Part shown: one piece after another, positions 6,335-7,213 of the stretch
Layout: the number at the start of each line of letters is the position of its first letter
How positions within the stretch are numbered: position 1 is the stretch's first letter
Program-made: the position numbers and the translations under genes
Source: a virus
Reading direction: 5' to 3' (one strand)
IMG/VR virus record: IMGVR_UViG_3300034166_000324
Coordinates: 1-21,316 of that record
Length of the DNA: 21,316 bases
The notes under the pieces: generated by a model
Databases searched by the model: none
What the model saw: the letters and a program-made list of their open reading frames with translations, nothing else
Told to the model about the DNA's origin: nothing

Positions 6335-7213
6335 TTAGTTCGTGAGATCGAGGAACTCTGCTCTTGTGGATGAATCGGTTCGGAATCTTCCTGAGAATGA
6401 TGATGTGATCATTTCTCCAGGCTTCTTGATTCCTCGGAGGCTCATGCATGAGTGGTGGCCTCTGACGATGCAGGCCGCTCCTTGAGGTGATAGATGATCA
6501 TCGATCGCTTGACGAATTTGTTGTGTCATTCGTTCTTGTACTTGTAGGCGCTTGGCATAGACATCTACGAGCCTGGCGAGTTTGCTGAGGCCTACGACTC
6601 TCTTCCCTGGAATGTAGGCGAGATCGATTGTTCCTGTGAATGGGAGGAGATGATGTTCGCATAGTGAGGAGAAGGGAATGGATCGGAGCAATACCATCTC
6701 ATTGCATTCGACATCGAATGTCGTTGAGAGGATCTCTTTGGGATCTAGTGCATAGCCTTCTGTTTGTTCCTTGAATGCTTTCAATACTCTCTCAGGGGTA
6801 TCGATCAATCCTTCTCTCGATGGATCTTCTCCGATGTATTCGATGAGTCGAGCGATGCCATCTGTCGGAGCGCCATCATTCTTCTCCCACGGGAAGGAGA
6901 TCCAATCGTCTATCAGTCGAGCATCGGGAGCGTAATGAGTTGGCGAGTGAGGTTTGCGGAAGCCTGCATCGATCTTGAATTGCCCGAAGTATTTCTTCAT
7001 CGTGCGGCCTGAGTCGATGAGATCATCGATCACTAGCGTTCCCATTCCTAGTTGTGGCTCTTGGATCATCGGGATCTTGAGGATCTCGGAGATCATGACA
7101 GCGAGCGGAGCGCCACCTTGAGGAATGCCATAGACGGAGAAGACTTGGCCATCCCATCGCTTAGCGATTCGTTCTGCTTCTTTCCTTACTTCTTCCCATG
7201 TCACATGAATCAT
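6335..7213 (-). CDS. folE: Gpt-like phosphoribosyltransferase fused to GTP cyclohydrolase I
   Basis: The C-terminal part (about 115-292) is GTP cyclohydrolase I, which turns GTP into dihydroneopterin triphosphate, the first step to preQ0. It carries the family start IGEDPSREGLIDTPERV, the zinc/catalytic CEHH at 185-188 and HSC at 254-256. The N-terminal 110 residues match xanthine-guanine phosphoribosyltransferase segment by segment: VTWEEVRKEAERIAKR, the PRPP loop TLVIDDLIDSGRT at 59-71, and DDWISFPWE at 102-110, which matches the purine-recognising DTWIEQPWD of E. coli Gpt as I recall it. The flexible loop before the PRPP motif is missing, and the usual Arg of the pyrophosphate loop (SRGG) is Gln (PQGG, 31-34). 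The start overlaps the queE stop as TAATG. Confidence 0.93.
   Translation of the reverse strand: MIHVTWEEVRKEAERIAKRWDGQVFSVYGIPQGGAPLAVMISEILKIPMIQEPQLGMGTLVIDDLIDSGRTMKKYFGQFKIDAGFRKPHSPTHYAPDARLIDDWISFPWEKNDGAPTDGIARLIEYIGEDPSREGLIDTPERVLKAFKEQTEGYALDPKEILSTTFDVECNEMVLLRSIPFSSLCEHHLLPFTGTIDLAYIPGKRVVGLSKLARLVDVYAKRLQVQERMTQQIRQAIDDHLSPQGAACIVRGHHSCMSLRGIKKPGEMITSSFSGRFRTDSSTRAEFLDLTN

Follow-up and report, generated by a model that had tools for sequence, protein, structure and literature searches.

The window analysed here is the whole 21,316-base stretch of a virus record, and its gene cluster is assigned to a tailed phage. Genes on the minus strand form a tightly overlapping run from 10520 down to 6335, in the order ParB-like, DpdA-like, QueC, QueD, QueE and, last, a gene in which a phosphoribosyltransferase (PRT) is joined to GTP cyclohydrolase I (FolE). 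The start codon of the fused gene shares one base with the queE stop codon. The features are as follows:

9930..10520, minus strand: ParB-like protein, heading the overlapping run
9064..9933, minus strand: DpdA-like transglycosylase (phrog_887, 2.1e-54)
8372..9067, minus strand: QueC gene (by run order)
7926..8375, minus strand: QueD gene (by run order)
7213..7935, minus strand: QueE-like radical SAM protein
6335..7213, minus strand: fused PRT-FolE gene, a single open frame of 292 aa
6878..7213, minus strand: compact XGPRT-like type I PRT domain (residues 1-112)
7112..7132, minus strand: pyrophosphate loop (loop I) YGIPQGG (residues 28-34), with Gln32
7040..7078, minus strand: short coil of 13 residues replacing the flexible loop of Gpt (residues 46-58)
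7001..7033, minus strand: PRPP motif VIDDLIDSGRT (residues 61-71)
6953..6955, minus strand: Lys87, aligned with the purine Lys of Gpt
6884..6904, minus strand: purine site WISFPWE (residues 104-110)
6863..6883, minus strand: short interdomain linker of about seven residues (residues 111-117)
6338..6862, minus strand: complete GTP cyclohydrolase I domain (residues 118-292)

At the head of the run, the ParB-like gene (9930-10520, minus strand) and the start of dpdA share 4 bases. A ParB-like relative lies no more than ~410 bases upstream of the DpdA match in 32 of 40 listed places (the window and repeated contigs counted), and the ParB-like protein may regularly go together with DpdA. Directly after the fused gene is a small Cys-rich protein (6004-6324, minus strand) with a weak HNH match (0.035). 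Also on the minus strand are a WhiB-family regulator (14742-14996; PF02467, 1.7e-17), which points to an actinobacterial host, a YqaJ-type recombinase domain (16372-17610; 5.5e-10), and a lysozyme-like SLT_3 domain protein (12778-13326; 6.7e-8).

Judged from profile matches and modelled structures, the fused protein is a true two-domain enzyme composed of a compact xanthine-guanine-type PRT, whose activity is predicted, and a GTP cyclohydrolase I. The FolE half is readily recognized by PF01227 (residues 120-291, 5.8e-68; 228.3 bits against a cut-off of 27) and by TIGR00063 (206.1 bits, above its cut-off of 181.6). Residues C185, H187, H188, H254, and C256, which we take to be the zinc ligands and catalytic His, are invariant across 85 fusions. 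The PRT half is matched by PF00156 when the first 116 residues are used alone (2.2e-5; 24.3 bits, just below the curated 26.3), by the NCBIfam xanthine PRT model PRK09177 (2.2e-7; 30.6 bits, below its cut-off of 138), and by phrog_8995, a phosphoribosyl transferase family (5.2e-9). A profile built from 140 relatives of the domain matches solved purine PRTs over its full length, including 1vdm (2.7e-21) and E. coli XGPRT 1a95 (2.4e-17), and aligns with XGPRT end to end, with a gap that falls at the flexible loop.

Structure prediction and superposition on Gpt and FolE, as a preliminary description of this DNA had proposed, support the same assignment. The AlphaFold models, built on alignments of the window sequence and its viral-contig relatives, reach a pLDDT of 94.8 and a pTM of 0.88 for the PRT alone (140 rows), and 95.9 and 0.77 for the full-length protein (85 rows). 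Among solved structures, the closest to the PRT is E. coli XGPRT 4jls (VIA-align; Z 15.9, 114 aligned residues, rmsd 2.9, 25% identity), and Foldseek agrees on XGPRT (7.5e-9). In the full-length model, the N-terminus again matches XGPRT (Z 16.1), while residues 103-292 match human GCH1 (Z 25.8). Weaker structural matches of the PRT include PyrR (Z about 10) and the ppGpp-bound PRT 5vog (Z 11.6). The earlier claim that the N-terminal ~110 residues are Gpt-like is thus confirmed by profile, model, and superposition, and the domain is both like, and descended from, the XGPRT (Gpt) family, as a loop-less variant.

The fusion is not confined to this record. Scans of viral contigs recovered more than 80 further PRT-FolE fusions on separate contigs. 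Together, the viral-contig scans, the window, and the annotated phages yield 153 distinct PRTs, of which 92 are fused and 61 separate. A tblastn search of annotated phages with the PRT domain returned 40 records. Among 11 records examined, five cultured phages carry the fused frame (MMDA13, PaMx25, Stenotrophomonas 2008005c, Vibrio 1.207.B, and VpKK5). Three have a separate PRT, namely Flavobacterium immuto and Brevundimonas StAshley, both with the PRT beside FolE, and one unannotated faecal contig; the other three have FolE without a PRT. In bacterial genomes, a single match over both domains occurs among the 80 loci listed, on a MAG contig (L205) whose protein is 78% identical to that of PaMx25. 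The preliminary description had called the fusion unusual, which holds with respect to annotated cellular genes; within phage 7-deazaguanine clusters, however, it is common. All five cultured-phage fusions are annotated solely as GTP cyclohydrolase, and the PRT part went unnoticed because annotators named the whole gene FolE. In PaMx25 (NC_041953.1, 5880-6810), the annotated folE starts inside the open reading frame, and a hypothetical gene in the wrong frame is annotated across the PRT half.

An assembly or frameshift artefact that joins two genes is a vanishingly improbable explanation. Nothing was found in its favour, and frameshift or chimera is ruled out by the many independent open fusions, on more than 80 contigs and in five cultured phages. 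Neither of the two outcomes named beforehand as fatal to the initial claim, a frameshift or the lack of any type I PRT match to the N-terminus, was therefore encountered.

The active site of the PRT domain is conserved to a high degree. The PRPP motif DDxxD[ST]GxT is present in the window PRT, and G34, D63, D64, G69, and T71 are invariant in all 140 aligned domains. D67 is kept in 139 of the 140, W104 in 136, and E110 in 137 (the other three have Asp). Position 87, whose counterpart in Gpt is presumably a purine-binding residue, is Lys in 119 domains and Arg in six. When eight PRPP- and purine-site features were chosen and scored, all eight were kept in 124/140 domains and seven in the other 16. 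Alignment A3 leaves out duplicates of the PRT sequence, L001, L002, and L051 (protein identical to that of the window), the cut or partial L076, L127, L160, L166, and L194, and the annotated-phage loci L040-L050. The PRPP motif and purine site are therefore as first described and conserved over 140 domains, and key motifs are indeed kept in both halves. In contrast, the reported replacement of the loop I Arg by Gln is true of the window and atypical of the family, since position 32 is Arg in 107 of 140 domains, Lys in eight, and Gln in nine (window included). The 25 rows that lack R/K32 have Arg or Lys more often than the other 115 at position 70 (72% vs. 28%) and at position 86 (56% vs. 14%), although these 25 rows are related to each other and thus permit no conclusion on compensation for the loop I Arg.

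What the domain lacks is the flexible loop. In HGPRT, a large flexible loop closes over and sequesters the active site, according to PMC11089518. In the AlphaFold model of the phage domain, a coil sits in its place between the helix of residues 35-45 and the strand of residues 59-66. The span from Gly-Gly to Asp-Asp is 28 residues in the window, compared to 48 in Gpt. The preliminary description was correct that the loop is lost, but its figure of about ten residues for the shortened segment fits solely the 13-residue coil. Across 93 fused domains, the span ranges from 11 (probably a partial alignment) to 42, and is ≤36 in 88. Among unique domains that are not fused, spans of ≤36 occur in 45 of the 56 with FolE nearby, ten of 15 near other que/dpd genes, and eight of 20 near none; the 56 include six genome loci with a long-span PRT (L213, L218, L228, L252, L274, and L282). 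These six are mostly actinobacteria-named, with a long-span purine PRT ≤8 kb from folE, and we take them to be the hpt-ftsH-folE neighbourhood.

The PRT evolves under purifying selection, with dN/dS of 0.03-0.42 for pairs with measurable dN and dS. Values are low in both halves and higher in the PRT than in FolE, with the PRT evolving faster; the set comprises 25 pairs at ≥72% identity, several of which have saturated dS or near-zero dN. A decayed relic is ruled out by the invariant sites together with these ratios.

One conserved residue bears on the kind of base that is bound. Toyocamycin biosynthesis is a precedent in which a PRT is thought to use preQ0, and the location within a preQ0 cluster would likewise suit a PRT that acts on a 7-deazapurine base (preQ0 or CDG) to yield a modified nucleotide. 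DpdA, however, exchanges bases and requires no nucleotide. In addition, the phage D67, retained in 139 of 140 domains, aligns with D137 of human HGPRT, which, according to PMC11089518, approaches purine N7 during catalysis; as this atom is absent from 7-deazaguanines, true purines are favoured and a 7-deazapurine substrate is very unlikely.

The PRT is tied to FolE even where the two are not fused. One of the viral-contig scans employed an alignment of the PRT only (12 of its 17 rows from fusions) plus the PRPP pattern, a query that does not presuppose a link to FolE. The resulting 80 loci comprise 24 fusions, 40 separate PRTs with FolE within ~6 kb, seven PRTs with other que/dpd genes, and nine with none, several of the latter at contig ends. 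All 40 separate PRTs share the strand of FolE, and 24 are direct neighbours (gap of -60 to 120 bases), with FolE first in 21 and the PRT first in three. As a control, a loop-bearing viral PRT was used as query: among its 25 relatives, some of which are compact themselves, 11 had no que/dpd genes nearby, eight had some, and six had FolE (a second loop-bearing query gave five loci, not tallied separately). The tie to FolE is thus weaker for loop-bearing PRTs, yet present. Fused and separate arrangements cluster on the PRT tree, where the label changes five times, at least two of them by well-supported branches, compared to 43.7 times when shuffled; the tree was made from few columns by a quick method.

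DpdA is a frequent companion as well. The proposed search for the same fusion near dpdA succeeded: the set L003-L011 and L052-L130 (88 loci) includes 84 fused ones, and 67 of these have DpdA-type genes nearby. For separate PRTs, 29 of 37 records have a DpdA-type family (phrog_887 in five, phrog_19058 in 25, one record having both), phrog_19058 being counted as DpdA on the strength of a single depositor's label. This label is that of Flavobacterium immuto, whose DpdA (8135-8926) falls in phrog_19058, a family without annotated function; this family may be of DpdA type and so far unrecognised, and a sequence search of the PDB gave no match for it. DpdA is also near 25 of 26 FolE loci that lack a PRT, which makes its presence uninformative as a test of guanine recapture. 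PRT-less clusters with DpdA being common, the PRT domain is an accessory rather than a core part.

Could the domain be an appendage for structure or oligomerisation, with its ligand functions lost? The missing flexible loop, the faster divergence of the PRT relative to FolE, and the related clusters in which FolE has no PRT are all consistent with this. The idea is nonetheless quite improbable, given that ligand residues are invariant over 140 diverged domains and that separate PRT genes beside FolE are ill-suited to a mere scaffold.

Two readings of function remain, guanine recapture and ligand sensing. Recapture is tentatively preferred. The PRT half would convert guanine and PRPP to GMP, kinases would raise GMP to GTP, and the FolE half would make dihydroneopterin triphosphate from GTP to supply QueD, QueE, and QueC. 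According to PMC6884629 and PMC11945000, DpdA replaces guanine in DNA by a modified base. Each such swap for a 7-deazaguanine would free one guanine, breakdown of host DNA may release more, and the fusion would recapture the freed guanine as precursor of the next modified base. Without the loop, the active site might work more slowly or stay more open, or an adjacent subunit of the FolE ring might close it. Recapture is favoured because guanine/xanthine PRTs lead both the structural and the profile matches, because most domains keep every scored PRPP and purine-site feature under purifying selection, and because the PRT is tied to FolE in the scan loci, with DpdA-type genes near and FolE residues complete. 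Several observations count against it: every fused domain has a shortened flexible loop, and in the window the Arg of loop I is missing as well; FolE does not use GMP as its substrate, such that two kinase steps stand between the halves; modification does not need recapture, as the PRT-less loci with DpdA indicate; and the PRT evolves faster than FolE. A bolder version, in which this loop-less PRT class arose in phage 7-deazaguanine systems and DpdA, PRT, and FolE form a closed guanine circuit, the FolE ring shutting the PRT site in place of the loop, is unlikely.

Sensing, the main rival, is possible but rather doubtful. Here the PRT would bind GMP, ppGpp, or PRPP without turnover and gate FolE, letting GTP enter preQ0 synthesis only under an ample supply of guanine nucleotides or PRPP, in the manner of PyrR or the ppGpp-bound PRTs. 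In its favour, the ligand site persists even though each of the 93 fused domains has a shortened closing loop, and both PyrR and 5vog are among the structural matches. Furthermore, FolE of animals is under the control of GFRP, a partner protein that is bound in several of the matched structures. Conservation of D67 and of the purine Trp and acid, however, is nearly equal to that of the phosphate site and exceeds the need of binding alone, and separate PRT genes beside FolE would need to act in trans.

The same pairing in many diverse viruses suggests that guanine recycling or sensing is coupled to DNA disguise. A conserved further part of this kind would link guanine or PRPP supply to that disguise, and a loop-less PRT is a natural test of the role of the flexible loop in phosphoribosyltransferases. 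Since cultured phages carry the fusion, these proposals are directly testable. Both domains and the pathway are already known. A PRT joined to phage FolE is not mentioned in the passages covered of the literature searched, including PMC11309003, PMC11097641, PMC6884629, and PMC7472734, or in those of PMC8265664, PMC7824862, PMC11888242, and PMC11945000; nor was a loop-less PRT found there that repeatedly accompanies FolE in phage DNA modification.

Among known systems, the phage preQ0/archaeosine DNA modification clusters (PMC6884629) likewise bring together FolE, QueD, QueE, QueC, and DpdA. Relative to these, the PRT is an extra, unremarked part, and the term "phosphoribosyl" is absent from the main text of that paper. 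The PRT domain shares with Gpt/XGPRT (1a95, 4jls) its fold, N-terminal strand-helix, loop I Gly-Gly, PRPP motif, purine Lys, and W-x-x-PW-acid site. It differs in having ~20 fewer residues from loop I to the PRPP motif, where the flexible loop is missing, in lacking the C-terminal tail, in having Gln for Arg in loop I (window), and in its fusion to FolE. PyrR shows the PRT fold in regulatory use and has an RNA-binding face of its own, but its match here ranks well below that of XGPRT. Finally, the FolE half corresponds to GTP cyclohydrolase I (1wm9 and human GCH1 6z86) over the whole domain, at Z 25.8 over 181 residues and with the catalytic residues kept. Where cellular FolE has an N-terminal extension, the phage protein has its PRT domain.
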